This document shows, piece by piece, positions 27,609 through 32,706 of a DNA stretch of 36,557 bases. Both the position numbers and the translations under genes were made by a program. Within the stretch, counting starts at the first letter, position 1. Each line of letters opens with the position of its first letter. Under the pieces are notes generated by a model that was not told where the DNA came from, did not search any database, and saw nothing but the letters and a program-made list of their open reading frames with translations. This stretch comes from Oscillatoriales cyanobacterium CG2_30_44_21 (GTDB taxonomy: Bacteria > Cyanobacteriota > Cyanobacteriia > Pseudanabaenales > Pseudanabaenaceae), in assembly GCA_001873375.1 (NCBI GenBank), contig MNZA01000170.1, positions 1 through 36,557 on the forward strand, given 5' to 3'.

Positions 27609-27614
27609 ATTATA
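27609..27614 (-). promoter_or_regulatory. -10 box of aroB
   Basis: A perfect TATAAT on the minus strand lies 20 bases before the ATG at 27588. No good -35 hexamer lies at 16-18 bases. The implied leader is about 14 bases. Confidence 0.5.
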
Positions 27615-27647
27615 GGCGATATGGCAATGCAAAAATCGCGATCGCGC

Positions 27648-27983
27648 CTAACTTACGGCATACTCTGTAAACTGACGCATAAATTCAGAATGAAAGCCGA
27701 TCACAATATCCTGTTTAGGCACTCCTGCTTTCACTAATTCTTCGGCAAGTTCAATTTCTGTACCGTTATATTGCAACCAAATTTTGCCTTGTTTAATATC
27801 AAGGTGCAGAATGCAACCATAAACACGATGTTCTTTTTCCCAGCCAACATTGACAATTTGATAATGGTCATGCTCTGTGTCAAAAATCAACTCTCGATCT
27901 ACACCATTTCGTCTGTAGTCATCTTGACCATACTCTTTAATAATCGTTTTAATAATTTCCCGATATTTATTTAGTTTATCCAT
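27648..27983 (-). CDS. xisI: XisI-family protein
   Basis: The 111-residue protein matches XisI along its length: MDKLNKYREIIKTIIKEYG, then GVDRELIFDTEHDHYQIVNVGWEKEHRVYGCILHLDIKQGKIWLQYNGTEIELAEELVKAGVPKQDIVIGFH. XisI was described as a factor controlling excision of the fdxN element in heterocystous Anabaena, with XisH and the recombinase XisF. Here there is no recombinase and no fdxN, so that role is unlikely. xisH-xisI pairs are spread through cyanobacteria, often in multiple copies. The start overlaps the 3' end of xisH by 13 bases, indicating coupled translation. Confidence 0.93.
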   Translation of the reverse strand: MDKLNKYREIIKTIIKEYGQDDYRRNGVDRELIFDTEHDHYQIVNVGWEKEHRVYGCILHLDIKQGKIWLQYNGTEIELAEELVKAGVPKQDIVIGFHSEFMRQFTEYAVS

Positions 27984-28387
27984 TGCTCTATTTCCTGCTT
28001 AGTTGGGTTATAGACAATCAGGCTTATACCTTGATTTTTAATAACAAGCTGAATCAATTCTAATTTAAAGAATGTTTCGTAAGTTGCGATCGGTACAGCC
28101 AAATACATTATCCTCTCTGGTTGCTTTTGGCTAAGCACAGCTTTGTAATTAATAAATTGCCCCAAAGCTCTATGAAACTCAGAAATTGCCGAACTACCAA
28201 TAAAGCTTTTAATTTCAACTGCGATTTTTTCACCATCACGTTCAGCAGCAATTATTTTTTCAGCAGCTAAATCAATATAAATTTCAACCCCACCAAAATC
28301 TAAGTACAGTGGATCATCGGTGATTGCCCAGCCTTCTTTTTCTAGCCCTATTTTGACTGTATCGTGAAAAATATCTTTTGCAGGCAT
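27971..28387 (-). CDS. xisH: XisH-family protein (endonuclease-like fold)
   Basis: The start at 28387 fits the family's usual MPAKDIFHDTVK; the track's ATG at 28402 adds five residues. The product of about 138 residues contains a PD-(D/E)XK-like core: DFGGVEIYIDLAAEKIIAAERDGEKIAVEIKSFIG, with Asp/Glu and the ExK in VEIKSF, then SEFHRALGQFINYKAVL. That suggests a nuclease-type fold related to restriction enzymes and Uma2 proteins. It always pairs with xisI, so the two probably work together, perhaps as an enzyme and its partner or inhibitor. No recombinase gene lies near. Confidence 0.92.
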   Translation of the reverse strand: MPAKDIFHDTVKIGLEKEGWAITDDPLYLDFGGVEIYIDLAAEKIIAAERDGEKIAVEIKSFIGSSAISEFHRALGQFINYKAVLSQKQPERIMYLAVPIATYETFFKLELIQLVIKNQGISLIVYNPTKQEIEQWIN

Positions 28388-28442
28388 AAAATTAAGTAAC
28401 ATTCCAACAAGTATTTACCAAGACTGACCAAAATACACCTAA

Positions 28443-28940
28443 TTATGACTGTACTTTGTTTTTCTGTCTCCACTCTGGCGGGAGTTCAACACTTACTTTG
28501 ATATCTATGGTTCCTGAATTTTGATTAAAGTTCATAATAGTTAGCTTAACAAATTGCTCCAACTCTTGCTCTGTTGCAGTCTGTGATTGCGAAAAAGACC
28601 TTAATCGATATCCTTCGGTTTCGCTCCAATGGGGAATACTATGACGACTACCTGTATTTTGTTCTGGACTATCTGCCATATTAGTAATCTTTTTAAAATA
28701 TTTGTATAAAGTTTTGCATAGGTAAACCTCTACACCTTTTGGACTTTTGACTAAATTCTTGGCAATCTCAGTGGGCGTATGTCCACACAGCAAACTTCGC
28801 AAATACAGCTTTTCTGTTGGATTTAAACCCTTACGAGAATTAGGAGCAACTTCTTGTTTGACCTTCGCAAATCGTTCGTAAATTTTGTCTAAGTCCCAGT
28901 AATATTGTGCTTCAGCAAATATCTTTTCCTCGTCAATCAT
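28443..28940 (-). CDS. Helix-turn-helix protein divergent from the TerY-P-like triad
   Basis: The ATG at 28940 has AGGTGG five bases upstream and is preferred to the track's GTG at 28949. Residues about 35-95 form a LuxR/sigma-like HTH: LNPTEKLYLRSLLCGHTPTEIAKNLVKSPKGVEVYLCKTLYKYFKKIT. A similar N-terminal HTH module is found in cyanobacterial STAND/NTPase and vWA-MoxR-associated proteins. The C-terminal part is polar (SRHSIPHWSETEGYRLRSFSQSQ) and ends in a predicted beta segment (TIDIKVSVELPPEW). Transcribed divergently from the vWA-PP2C-kinase genes over a 113-base gap rich in repeated TAGC motifs, it is a candidate regulator of that cluster. Confidence 0.72.
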   Translation of the reverse strand: MIDEEKIFAEAQYYWDLDKIYERFAKVKQEVAPNSRKGLNPTEKLYLRSLLCGHTPTEIAKNLVKSPKGVEVYLCKTLYKYFKKITNMADSPEQNTGSRHSIPHWSETEGYRLRSFSQSQTATEQELEQFVKLTIMNFNQNSGTIDIKVSVELPPEWRQKNKVQS

Positions 28941-28968
28941 AAATTCCACCTAAATAGTAGCTAATGAC

Positions 28969-29029
28969 TAGCAAAATTCATAGCATATGCTAGGTAAAGC
29001 TTAGCAAAAGAATATGCTATTGTTATAAA
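28969..29029. promoter_or_regulatory. Divergent promoter with repeated operator-like motifs
   Basis: TAGCAAAA...ATATGCTA occurs twice (28969-28992 and 29002-29019), with 8- and 2-base spacers. The first copy contains the palindrome TAGCATATGCTA (28981-28992). The second copy overlaps a plausible promoter of the vWA gene: TTAGCA (29001-29006), 17 bases, TATAAA (29024-29029). A regulator bound here would block or control the triad and probably the HTH gene. Confidence 0.55.
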
Positions 29030-29053
29030 AATTCTCAAGTAGATATAACAGTT

Positions 29054-29728
29054 ATGGCAGTTAATTACCGTGATTTTCCTGAAGCCTACGAGAATACTGA
29101 AGCAAGATGTCCTGTAGTACTTGTGCTTGATGTTTCGGGATCGATGTCAGGGGAGCCAATTAGACAATTAAATGAGGGGCTAAGAGTTCTAAAAAAAGCA
29201 TTGGAAGATGACCCAACTGCGAGTTTGCGTGTAGAAGTAGCAGTTGTTACATTTGGGGCTTCAGTTAGCCTTGCCCATGATTTTGCCACGATGGATGCGT
29301 TTAACCCTCCAACACTTAGCGCAGATGGTGGCACGCCTATGGGTGAAGGACTTGAATATGCTCTGCAATTAGTGGCTGAACGAAAAGAGCAGTACAAAAA
29401 TCATGGTCTAAAATATTATCAGCCTTGGGTATGGCTGATTACAGATGGTTATCCAAATGGCAACTCGCCTTGGCAAGAAGCTGCTCAGAAAATTCATCAA
29501 GAGCATAAAAACAAGAAAATCTCTTTCTTTGCCGTGGCGGTTGAGGGAGCCGATATGAACCAACTCAAGCAGGTTTCTCCGCCAGATCGTACTCCTGTTA
29601 AATTGAACGGACTTGACTTTAAGACGATGTTTTTATGGCTAAGTAGATCAGTGGGCAAAACAGCTAGTGGCAAAGTTGGTGAAGAAGGGCAAACTAAACT
29701 AGAGCCAATTGGTTGGGGAAGTGTTTAA
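29054..29728 (+). CDS. von Willebrand A-domain protein (TerY-like)
   Basis: The 224-residue soluble protein is almost entirely a vWA domain, with a complete MIDAS: DVSGSMS (D26, S28, S30), Thr94 in GGTPMGEG and Asp131 in LITDGYPNG. The region with QLNEGLRVLKKALEDDPTA and VAVEGADMNQLKQVS fits the TerY subfamily of tellurite-resistance/stress systems. A vWA domain with metal in the MIDAS binds partner proteins. The stop codon overlaps the ATG of the PP2C gene (TAATG), so the two are coupled. It is the first gene of the triad with PP2C and kinase. Confidence 0.85.
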   Translation: MAVNYRDFPEAYENTEARCPVVLVLDVSGSMSGEPIRQLNEGLRVLKKALEDDPTASLRVEVAVVTFGASVSLAHDFATMDAFNPPTLSADGGTPMGEGLEYALQLVAERKEQYKNHGLKYYQPWVWLITDGYPNGNSPWQEAAQKIHQEHKNKKISFFAVAVEGADMNQLKQVSPPDRTPVKLNGLDFKTMFLWLSRSVGKTASGKVGEEGQTKLEPIGWGSV

Positions 29729-31389
29729 TGTGGGGATGGGGAAGTAATCAAGGTAAATCTCAAAATCAGGCTTCAACAAGAAGCCAGTGGAGAGCGATCG
29801 CCCGTTTCGAGATGGGGACAAGCCACATATCAACGCAAACGCCTTGTCAAGACTATGCAGAATATAAGCCATATGGCAATGATTACTTGATTGGAGCCGT
29901 ATCTGATGGGGCAGGGAGCCGCAGTTTGTCCCATTATGGCTCTAAGATTGCTGTTGAGACTACTATAAAATTTTTTACAGAAAAACTAGAAACCTCACGA
30001 AGCAAGTCATTCTTGTCACAAGATGGTGTGCAAATAGTTTTTCGAGAATTGATTGAAGTCGTTAGACATGAAATAGAAATAGCGGCGCAGGATTACTATC
30101 GGGAGAAGGGTAAAAAAGTTAGTGTGGGTGAATTTGCTTGTACTCTTCTGGCTTTTATCGCCTTTCCAGATGGCATAGCAGCTATGCAATTAGGTGACGG
30201 TTTCATTGTTGTCAGAAACTATCAAGGTAAAGGCTATGACTTACTTTTTGAGCCAAGCAAAGGCGAATACGCAAATGAAACTACCTTTGTAACTTCATCT
30301 TCCACGCATATTCAGCAAGATCTACAGATAACTTACAAAGCTAATCCTGTTAGCTTTATTTGTGCCTCAACTGATGGTCTAGAAAATTTAGCTCTCAATT
30401 TACGAAACAATGTAGCTTATCCGAAGTTTTTTGTCCCCCTCGAAAAATATATTCAAGAAACGATAGAGCCAGAGAAAGACGGCTACCTTATAGCTTTTTT
30501 AAATCATGAGACAGTTAATCGTAAGACTGATGATGATAAGACTATTTTGTTATGCGTCGATGTAAATGCTGATCCCGTCACAGAAATAAATTTAGGTGAT
30601 ACACCGACATCTAAAATACCTAGTTCACTGCCTCCGTCACAAACTCCACCGCCTGTGATTGGCTATCCGCCACCTATTCCCTTGCCTTCAGGCAGGAGAA
30701 CACCTAAACCATCTCCCGCAGATGTAATTACTACCCAAACTCCGTTTCCAACAGAAACGGATGACATTACTTATACAGCGCCTACATCAACGAAAAAGAT
30801 AAAAACAAAAGATTCACCTGTTTTAATAGGTCTTTTTCTATTTTCAAGTTTTCTGTATGTCTATTTTGCGACACTTGCAGCTTATCTTTTAGTTGAAAAA
30901 ATTCATCAAAACCGTCCTGAATTACAAATAACCATTGAAGTTTTGTGGAACAAAGCAGCAATTGGTTCTATACCAATTTGGGTTGCTACGATTTTTATTA
31001 TTGTTCTAACACTTTGGTCAATATTTTCTGGATTATATGCCACTGATAATGATATCGATAAAGATCGAAGATCCAAAAAAGATCAAAAATTCAAAAGTAC
31101 AAAAAAAGAAACTATACAGAGCTTAATTAAAAGTTTTAAACCAAATTTTGGCGAAATTATTTCTGTTTGTTTACCAGTTTTTGCTCTAACTTTGGCGCTC
31201 CTAACATCAATACACTTAAATAATACTTTTCCAAATACAAAAAGCTCAAACTCGAATAGTCAAAAAACTCAACAAACAGAAATTAGAAATAATTCTGGGG
31301 AATCGGCAAAAACCTTGAACGATCCCTGCAATGGTAAAAATGATTTTATGCGTCGAAAGTTATATCAAATCTTCAGATTACCAAAATGA
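29728..31389 (+). CDS. PP2C-type protein phosphatase with C-terminal membrane helices
   Basis: The ATG at 29728 overlaps the vWA stop and has GGGGAAG upstream; the track's TTG at 29713 is less likely. The N-terminal 280 residues form a PP2C_2-type phosphatase with the metal-binding residues: QDYAEY (D42), SDGAG (D60), LGDGF (D157), STDGL (D216) and TDDDKT (D268-D270). A proline-rich linker follows (about 290-345), then three membrane helices at about 364-390, 411-437 and 475-498. The phosphatase should face the cytosol, anchored in the membrane. It presumably dephosphorylates targets of the kinase encoded next. The C-terminal tail (NDPCNGKNDFMRRK...) looks unlike the rest. Confidence 0.85.
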   Translation: MWGWGSNQGKSQNQASTRSQWRAIARFEMGTSHISTQTPCQDYAEYKPYGNDYLIGAVSDGAGSRSLSHYGSKIAVETTIKFFTEKLETSRSKSFLSQDGVQIVFRELIEVVRHEIEIAAQDYYREKGKKVSVGEFACTLLAFIAFPDGIAAMQLGDGFIVVRNYQGKGYDLLFEPSKGEYANETTFVTSSSTHIQQDLQITYKANPVSFICASTDGLENLALNLRNNVAYPKFFVPLEKYIQETIEPEKDGYLIAFLNHETVNRKTDDDKTILLCVDVNADPVTEINLGDTPTSKIPSSLPPSQTPPPVIGYPPPIPLPSGRRTPKPSPADVITTQTPFPTETDDITYTAPTSTKKIKTKDSPVLIGLFLFSSFLYVYFATLAAYLLVEKIHQNRPELQITIEVLWNKAAIGSIPIWVATIFIIVLTLWSIFSGLYATDNDIDKDRRSKKDQKFKSTKKETIQSLIKSFKPNFGEIISVCLPVFALTLALLTSIHLNNTFPNTKSSNSNSQKTQQTEIRNNSGESAKTLNDPCNGKNDFMRRKLYQIFRLPK

Positions 31390-31433
31390 TAAATCCTTTA
31401 ATTTAAGCCTAGCTTTAATAAATTGGATTTATC
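31388..31433. promoter_or_regulatory. Stem-loop between the phosphatase and kinase genes
   Basis: GATAAATCC (31388-31396) pairs perfectly with GGATTTATC (31425-31433). AATTT/AAATT and AAGC/GCTT pair inside it. It starts at the PP2C stop codon. There is no T-run, so it may be a processing or stabilising element rather than a terminator. Confidence 0.4.
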
Positions 31434-31482
31434 TAATGTTTTATTCATATAAAAGACAAGTTAGTCGCGTAAGCAAAAAACA

Positions 31483-32700
31483 ATGAAAGATGATCAGGGA
31501 AAATCATTTAATTTCAATGGTGAACCTTTTGGCAGTGGTGGGGAAGGAAAAATCTATAGGATAAATCGACCAGGTTTTGTTGTTAAAATTTATGAAAAGC
31601 TACCCACTCCAGAACAAGTTAGCAAACTAAAAGTAATGATTGCTAATCCTCCCAAAACTTCTCCAAGCGATCCTGGTGATGTGGCGATCGCCTGGCCAAC
31701 TAGCTTAGTCTATAAGGGAAAGCAATGCATTGGGTTTTTAATGCCTGAAATAGGTAGAAACGTCCAGTTTATTCAAGTGTATAATCCCAAGAGTCGTAAA
31801 AAGATATTGCCTAAATGCAATTGGTTATTTCTTCACACAGCAGCACGAAATTTTACAGAAATAGTTAAGGATTTACATAAATCGGGCTATGTAATAGGTG
31901 ACATTAAACCGCAAAATATTCTAGTTAATGATCGGGCTTTCGTTTCCGTAGTTGATACAGACTCATTCCAAGTCAAGAATGGCAATACTGTTTATAGATG
32001 TCATGTCGTAACTGAAGGATTTACGCCTCCAGAAATGCTGGGGTTTGACACTTCAAATATTACCCAAACTCTCTATCATGACCGCTATCGCGTAGCCTTA
32101 ATAATCTACCACCTATTGTTTACTAGACACCCGTTTAATGAGGGAACCTGGCAAGATTCGGGCGATGAGCAAAGCCAAGTAGACAAGATGAAAAATGGAA
32201 TATGGCTATATAACTCGCAGGGCTTATTAAAATTTCACATATCAACAATACCCTTACAGGTCATTCACCCAAAGCTTCAGGAGCTATTTAAACGATGTTT
32301 TAATGATGGTCACAAAGACGCAACCAAGAGACCATCAGCAGAAGATTGGAGTGCTGCTTTGAAAGTAGCTATTAATGATCTTACTTCTTGCGGCAAAATT
32401 GATACCCATAAGTATAGTCGAACCTACGGTAAGTGCTATTGGTGCGAAAGAAAAAATATTTTGAATGGGGTAGATATTTTTGAGGGCTCAGCAAAACCTG
32501 TTATTTCGCTCCCGCCGCCAAGCAATCCTCCCGTTCAGACTACTCCCAGTACACCGATACCGACACCATCGCCGCCACTACCCACGAAAAAAATAATTGG
32601 TTTTGTGCTTTTAGCTATAGCGACAATTTGCTTTATCGGGGGCGCTATACCATTCGGTTTTATTTTAGGATTTATTGGTTTTAGCTGCTTTTCTGATTAA
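31483..32700 (+). CDS. Protein kinase with zinc-ribbon and C-terminal membrane segment
   Basis: The kinase domain spans about 10-300: glycine loop FGSGGEGKIY (16-25), Lys35, GDIKPQN with catalytic Asp140, where the usual HRD reads IGD, and VDTDSFQV in place of DFG (Asp158). This style (GDIKPQNILV...VDTDSFQV...GFTPPEM) is that of the TerY-P kinases. A Zn-ribbon-like stretch follows (about 303-321: C303, H309, C318, C321). A Pro-rich linker and a membrane segment at about 371-400 end the protein. It is the third gene of the triad, 93 bases after the phosphatase gene. Confidence 0.85.
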   Translation: MKDDQGKSFNFNGEPFGSGGEGKIYRINRPGFVVKIYEKLPTPEQVSKLKVMIANPPKTSPSDPGDVAIAWPTSLVYKGKQCIGFLMPEIGRNVQFIQVYNPKSRKKILPKCNWLFLHTAARNFTEIVKDLHKSGYVIGDIKPQNILVNDRAFVSVVDTDSFQVKNGNTVYRCHVVTEGFTPPEMLGFDTSNITQTLYHDRYRVALIIYHLLFTRHPFNEGTWQDSGDEQSQVDKMKNGIWLYNSQGLLKFHISTIPLQVIHPKLQELFKRCFNDGHKDATKRPSAEDWSAALKVAINDLTSCGKIDTHKYSRTYGKCYWCERKNILNGVDIFEGSAKPVISLPPPSNPPVQTTPSTPIPTPSPPLPTKKIIGFVLLAIATICFIGGAIPFGFILGFIGFSCFSD

Positions 32701-32706
32701 TAACTA

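Follow-up and report, generated by a model that had tools for sequence, protein, structure and literature searches.

A Yeg-type phosphorylation triad with a predicted membrane-anchored PP2C phosphatase on a cyanobacterial genomic island

The vWA-PP2C-kinase triad

The window analyzed here, the 36,557-nucleotide contig MNZA01000170.1 of Oscillatoriales cyanobacterium CG2_30_44_21, contains three adjacent genes encoding a von Willebrand factor A (vWA) protein, a PP2C phosphatase and a Ser/Thr kinase. By sequence homology, the triad belongs to the Yeg-type branch (YegL-PphC-YegI) and is TerY-P-like in outline only. It probably constitutes a Ser/Thr phosphorylation switch in which the phosphatase and the kinase are both anchored in the membrane. 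Triads of the Yeg/TerY-P superfamily are already known, as is their membrane kinase; the recurrent new element is the membrane PP2C. The literature searched contained no account of multi-pass membrane PP2C triads or of the helix-turn-helix (HTH) neighbor described below; Anantharaman 2012 may mention them.

The three genes lie on the forward strand in intact frames: the vWA protein (224 aa) at 29054-29728, the PP2C (553 aa) at 29728-31389 and the kinase (405 aa) at 31483-32700. The vWA stop codon, TAA at 29726-29728, shares a base with the PP2C ATG at 29728 (TAATG). The Pfam matches to VWA (1.5e-12), PP2C_2 (2.3e-44) and Pkinase (7.9e-13) were above the curated cut-offs. The metal ion-dependent adhesion site (MIDAS) of the vWA protein is intact, reading DVSGS...T...D. 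The PP2C comprises a catalytic domain at residues ~21-283, a Pro/Thr-rich linker and three transmembrane (TM) segments at ~364-500. Its metal-site residues, D42, D60/G61, D157, D216 and D269/D270, are invariant in 38 relatives. The kinase contains the catalytic loop GDIKPQN, and its catalytic residues K35, D140, N145 and D158 are kept. These residues are invariant or nearly so across 29-54 relatives, as is the Zn-ribbon-like C-H-C-W-C motif (C303/H309/C318/C321). The original prediction had described the three co-directional genes, the MIDAS, the PP2C metal residues, the Zn-ribbon and the TAATG overlap, and each of these was borne out.

AlphaFold modeled the PP2C fold and the kinase confidently, the kinase with a predicted local distance difference test score (pLDDT) of 84.6. 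In fold searches of the PDB, the catalytic domain of PstP was among the matches of the PP2C, and the nearest folds to the kinase were protein kinases. Sequence searches of solved structures returned no match for the PP2C and only distant kinases for the kinase.

Species genomes were scanned with a PP2C alignment. The scan yielded 80 loci, all of them labeled as cyanobacterial, or 81 with the window. The vWA gene was adjacent and on the same strand in 79 of the 81 loci, and the kinase gene in 74, which is far above chance. The genes are thus linked in relatives, as expected if they form a triad.

Relationship to the Yeg and TerY-P systems

Using BLASTP, the vWA protein shared 46% identity with YegL (E 4e-58), the PP2C 34% with PphC (E 1e-36) and the kinase 30% with YegI (E 5e-44). 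The corresponding values for the triad of the IncHI2 ter plasmid were 31% (2e-22), 27% (7e-10) and 24% (1e-18). Thus, each of the three proteins resembles its Yeg counterpart more closely than its counterpart in the ter-linked TerY-P triad. No TerY_C domain was matched by Pfam on the window vWA, whereas the plasmid vWA, used as a positive control, matched at E 3e-53. The genome lacks TerD entirely, and its one TerC-family gene is on another contig. The original prediction, which had noted that no TerD, TerC or other ter gene is nearby, was therefore correct on this point. Its assignment to the TerY-P triads was correct as to composition, but the ter-linked kinship did not survive the comparison.

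The window triad shares with strict TerY-P systems an operon of vWA, PP2C and Ser/Thr kinase genes and a Zn-ribbon on the kinase. This composition occurs in the IncHI2 triad and, in a passage of PMC11090510, in CoCoNuT-linked TerY-P. The IncHI2 triad differs in that its vWA carries TerY_C, its PP2C has a long N-terminal extension, none of its proteins has a TM segment and TerD/TerW are adjacent; its proteins are only 24-31% identical to those of the window. Strict TerY-P membership was ruled out by the missing TerY_C, the missing TerD and the nearer Yeg homologues. The PADLOC TerY model matched at E 0.005 only. This result is weak because PADLOC also misses the IncHI2 ter-linked triad, and it was dropped as evidence against TerY-P.

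We considered whether the locus is nevertheless a metal/tellurite or anti-phage module of the kind found in ter operons (Gao et al. 2020). The three matching activities occur in matching order, the kinase has its Zn-ribbon-like motif, all three proteins are distantly homologous to the IncHI2 triad and the genes lie on a horizontally moved island. Moreover, TerY-P protects Pseudomonas aeruginosa against phages (PMC10889362). Weighed against these points are the greater proximity of all three proteins to the Yeg type, the lack of TerY_C and TerD, and the poor PADLOC match, with the weakness noted above. In addition, by inspection, most genes around the membrane-PP2C triads are housekeeping genes or belong to small addiction modules. 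On balance, a ter-type module is unlikely. Phage records contained only three weak kinase matches.

The likeness of the Yeg-type window triad to yegL-pphC(yegK)-yegI of Escherichia coli K-12 extends to three homologues, gene order, direction and homology over full domains. The yegL and pphC genes also overlap and, by hydropathy, YegI has TM segments after its C-H-C-W-C zinc motif, as does the window kinase. A passage of PMC13232886, citing Rajagopalan 2018 and 2020, describes YegI as an inner-membrane, autophosphorylating kinase that is dephosphorylated by PphC. By contrast, PphC is soluble, with 253 aa and no tail, and YegI has a degenerate catalytic loop, GDVNQNS, and a long coiled-coil/HhH tail in place of the short TM hairpin of the window kinase. 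The K-12 locus also has yegJ inserted, and lacks an island, the HTH gene and XisHI. Solubility of the phosphatase was regarded as a property of E. coli PphC and not as defining the type. We therefore term the window triad a variant of the Yeg type, as its PP2C has three TM helices and its other traits agree.

Predicted membrane tails

The tail of the PP2C (residues 363-500, encoded at 30815-31227, forward strand) contains three 19-residue Kyte-Doolittle peaks with means of 2.08, 2.36 and 2.38 at residues ~365-383, 415-433 and 477-495. AlphaFold placed long helices at 364-395, 397-447 and 474-500, with block pLDDT of ~50-81 and the lowest values at the helix ends. The tail of the kinase has a single hydropathy segment (mean 2.65), which AlphaFold modeled as a C-terminal hairpin with helices at 369-385 (confident) and 392-403 (low confidence). 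Hydropathy and AlphaFold thus agree on the three phosphatase helices and the hydrophobic kinase end given in the original prediction, and a membrane tail is predicted at each C-terminus. No TM segment was detected by hydropathy in the vWA protein.

In the PP2C tail, the loop between TM2 and TM3 contains 11 K/R residues and the first loop contains three. Based on this bias and the positive-inside rule, the catalytic domain would be cytoplasmic and the topology of the tail is predicted to be N-in/C-out. The ratio of nonsynonymous to synonymous substitution rates (dN/dS) was 0.07 for the kinase TM segment, indicating strong constraint, 0.40 for the PP2C TM region, indicating moderate constraint, and 0.68 for the PP2C linker.

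The PknB-PstP pair of mycobacteria likewise opposes a Hanks-type kinase to a PP2C, each with a membrane segment. That pair differs in having no vWA partner, single TM segments, extracellular PASTA domains on the kinase and a role in cell-wall regulation.

Distribution and history of the membrane PP2C

A C-terminal TM region was present in 12 of the 81 PP2Cs. With two loci from a further genome set (L086 and L087), there were 14 membrane-PP2C triads, as compared to 73 with a soluble PP2C. The carriers are the window organism, Pseudanabaena cinerea, Dulcicalothrix, Calothrix, Oscillatoria (two), an uncultured Oscillatoriales, Planktothricoides, Microcoleus, an Oscillatoriaceae metagenome-assembled genome (MAG) and two Trichodesmium MAGs. 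The number of TM segments varies among members, and seven members that do not belong to Pseudanabaena have mutually homologous tails. A TM segment was also present in the kinase of 43 of 59 relatives with a soluble PP2C. As a membrane kinase is therefore the norm in this family, as in YegI, only the phosphatase is unusual. The original prediction had regarded the location of both enzymes at the membrane as unusual; this holds for the phosphatase tail, which nonetheless recurs in the 14 triads, and not for the kinase.

To examine the history of the trait, trees were constructed without the tail columns and the changes in the membrane trait were compared with those in shuffles. The trait clustered, requiring 1-2 changes as opposed to 11-13 in the shuffles, and none of 500 shuffles was as low. 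Specifically, one change was required on the quick PP2C tree and two on each of the careful PP2C, quick kinase, quick vWA and concatenated trees. The membrane-PP2C triads formed one clade on the quick PP2C tree (SH-aLRT, a Shimodaira-Hasegawa-like approximate likelihood-ratio test, 84) and a grade on the careful PP2C and concatenated trees. In the latter, the grade was basal and 36 soluble-PP2C triads formed one clade (95/91), which would make the membrane form old and lost once. A single membrane-PP2C clade was not rejected by the approximately unbiased test (p 0.122).

The kinases of membrane-PP2C triads are shorter than the others, with a median of 478 versus 664 aa. WD40 repeats were absent from all 12 kinases of this group that were compared but present in 19 of the 59 others (p 0.028, with no correction for phylogeny).

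The HTH neighbor

Divergent to the vWA gene, across an intergenic region of 104 bp, is a gene encoding a 168-aa HTH-like protein (28446-28949, reverse strand) with a weak GerE/LuxR-like Pfam match (E 0.037). The original prediction recognized the triad at this locus but overlooked both this gene and the island. In profile searches, a copy was found beside 10 of the 14 membrane-PP2C triads and none of the 73 soluble ones (Fisher p 3e-10, shared ancestry ignored); the copy at L086 is a 64-aa fragment. In many cyanobacteria, the domain also forms the N-terminal part of larger proteins. The HTH protein was ruled out as an exclusive partner of the triad by these large proteins and by copies beside other systems. 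It is the strongest local candidate for a regulator or output of the triad. Because it occurs elsewhere and is absent from four triads, this candidate regulator may lie outside the switch itself. A second standalone copy was present in the same genome at G000:C199:9762-10223.

Proposed mechanism

In the proposed switch, the kinase, held in the membrane by its C-terminal hairpin, would phosphorylate both itself and at least one partner in the cytoplasm. The PP2C domain would be fixed in place by the three TM segments of its tail and would undo this phosphorylation locally. The soluble vWA protein would bind a divalent metal via its MIDAS and either bridge the two enzymes or present the substrate. 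The stimulus would most likely enter through the PP2C membrane tail and shift the balance between kinase and phosphatase. As the window kinase lacks any additional sensory domain, this tail is the best remaining sensor candidate. The divergent HTH protein would act as a local regulator or output.

Several observations weigh against this proposal. Its support among the cyanobacterial members consists of sequence and predicted models, and the TM tails of both enzymes are themselves predictions. The PP2C tail evolves fast, like an anchor of little specificity, and the window tail had no significant match by hmmsearch or hhalign among the other group's 3-TM tails (best E 0.16). Finally, the HTH gene is missing at the triads of two Calothrix relatives and two Trichodesmium MAGs, and its family occurs beside unrelated systems in many cyanobacteria.

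The rate of tail divergence also bears on a second interpretation, namely that the tail is a passive anchor and that the system operates as the soluble-phosphatase triads do, its signal being sensed elsewhere. The dN/dS values of the TM region and linker would be consistent with this, as would the variable number of TM segments and the fact that the soluble-PP2C relatives are the majority. However, tail presence clusters on the tree, and the kinases that accompany a membrane PP2C are shorter and without WD40 domains, a hint that the sensing part has shifted. We consider a passive anchor a serious possibility, albeit not the expected one. A more elaborate arrangement, in which a multi-pass PP2C sensor, a kinase-vWA switch and a phospho-regulated HTH output make up a distinct four-part module on a mobile, possibly defensive, island, appears doubtful.

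For YegL-PphC-YegI of E. coli, neither a signal nor a substrate nor a condition of expression is known. The cyanobacterial relatives, with their membrane PP2C, recurring HTH neighbor and recent horizontal transfer, provide a natural comparison set for asking which half senses, whether the HTH protein is a target and whether the module is accessory, for example defensive. If the phosphatase does sense, this would invert the customary view, in which the kinase senses and the phosphatase is constitutive.

The genomic island

The triad lies between aroB and holA on an island of ~5 kb (27612-32706) with the gene order XisI-XisH-HTH-vWA-PP2C-kinase. The first two genes, both on the reverse strand, encode an XisI family protein (27648-27983; Pfam XisI 4.5e-46) and an XisH family protein (27971-28402; Pfam XisH 1.3e-57). 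The site is empty, with aroB directly downstream of holA, in 22 of the 23 other Pseudanabaena genomes in which holA was found. In the genome nearest by holA (G010, 94%), the holA/aroB gap is ~77 bp and no kinase homologue was found. The six-gene block occupies this gap in the window and P. cinerea only.

Between these two, the synonymous divergence (dS) was 0.21-0.40 for the six island genes, including 0.27 for XisI and 0.29 for XisH, as compared to 1.3 for aroB, 1.8 for infC and 2.2 for holA in the flanks. Similarly, nucleotide identity was mostly 90-98% inside the block, except in the PP2C tail, and ~63-87% in the flanking genes; both measures change abruptly at each edge of the block. These values indicate that, after the two lineages had separated, they exchanged the block or each acquired it. 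As proposed here, the cassette travels from strain to strain as a single unit. No integrase was seen within the island.

It is conceivable that this strain carries the island as a neutral or decaying passenger that serves no function at present. Such a fate would be consistent with its presence in only two Pseudanabaena species at the aroB/holA site and with the broken state of the genome's other triad, which is of the genus type. However, every frame and active site is intact, and dN/dS was well under 1: 0.04 for the vWA protein, 0.05 for the HTH protein, 0.11 for the kinase (0.09 for the kinase domain) and 0.13 for the PP2C catalytic domain. A passenger is therefore very improbable.

The least conserved part of the island is 31250-31480, spanning the C-terminus of the PP2C and the PP2C-kinase gap, with 41% identity in a 250-bp bin. 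The reading frame is open in both the window and P. cinerea despite this divergence. XisH and/or XisI genes, mostly divergent, also occur upstream of the vWA gene at soluble-PP2C triads in Nostoc-type genomes (L110, L118, L121, L089 and L090), a raw co-occurrence.

Other triads and kinase tails

The genome of the window organism contains a second, genus-type triad on another contig (L053/L099; G000:C258:88-3143). Its PP2C is intact, its vWA is truncated and its kinase has an internal deletion and a frameshift; a VapBC-like toxin-antitoxin pair sits between PP2C and kinase. Other Pseudanabaena have a soluble vWA-PP2C-kinase triad followed directly by a helicase gene (L050:2042-8323; PADLOC MkoA, 5e-93), a candidate Mokosh-like/TerY-P-like defense operon by sequence. 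At L085:3365-6643 (G328), the 1093-aa triad kinase has a second complete kinase domain in tandem with the first, then WD40 repeats and a TM hairpin.

The C-terminal tails of related kinases swap domains freely, carrying WD40 (20 of 54), TPR, DUF1036 or FGE-sulfatase domains, with swaps at L166/L088, L043 and L150. As regards the FGE-sulfatase, cyanobacterial retroelements target C-type-lectin-like domains that have been grafted onto kinases (PMC7517822). The domain variability of the kinase tail in this related family suggests that the tail is the input.

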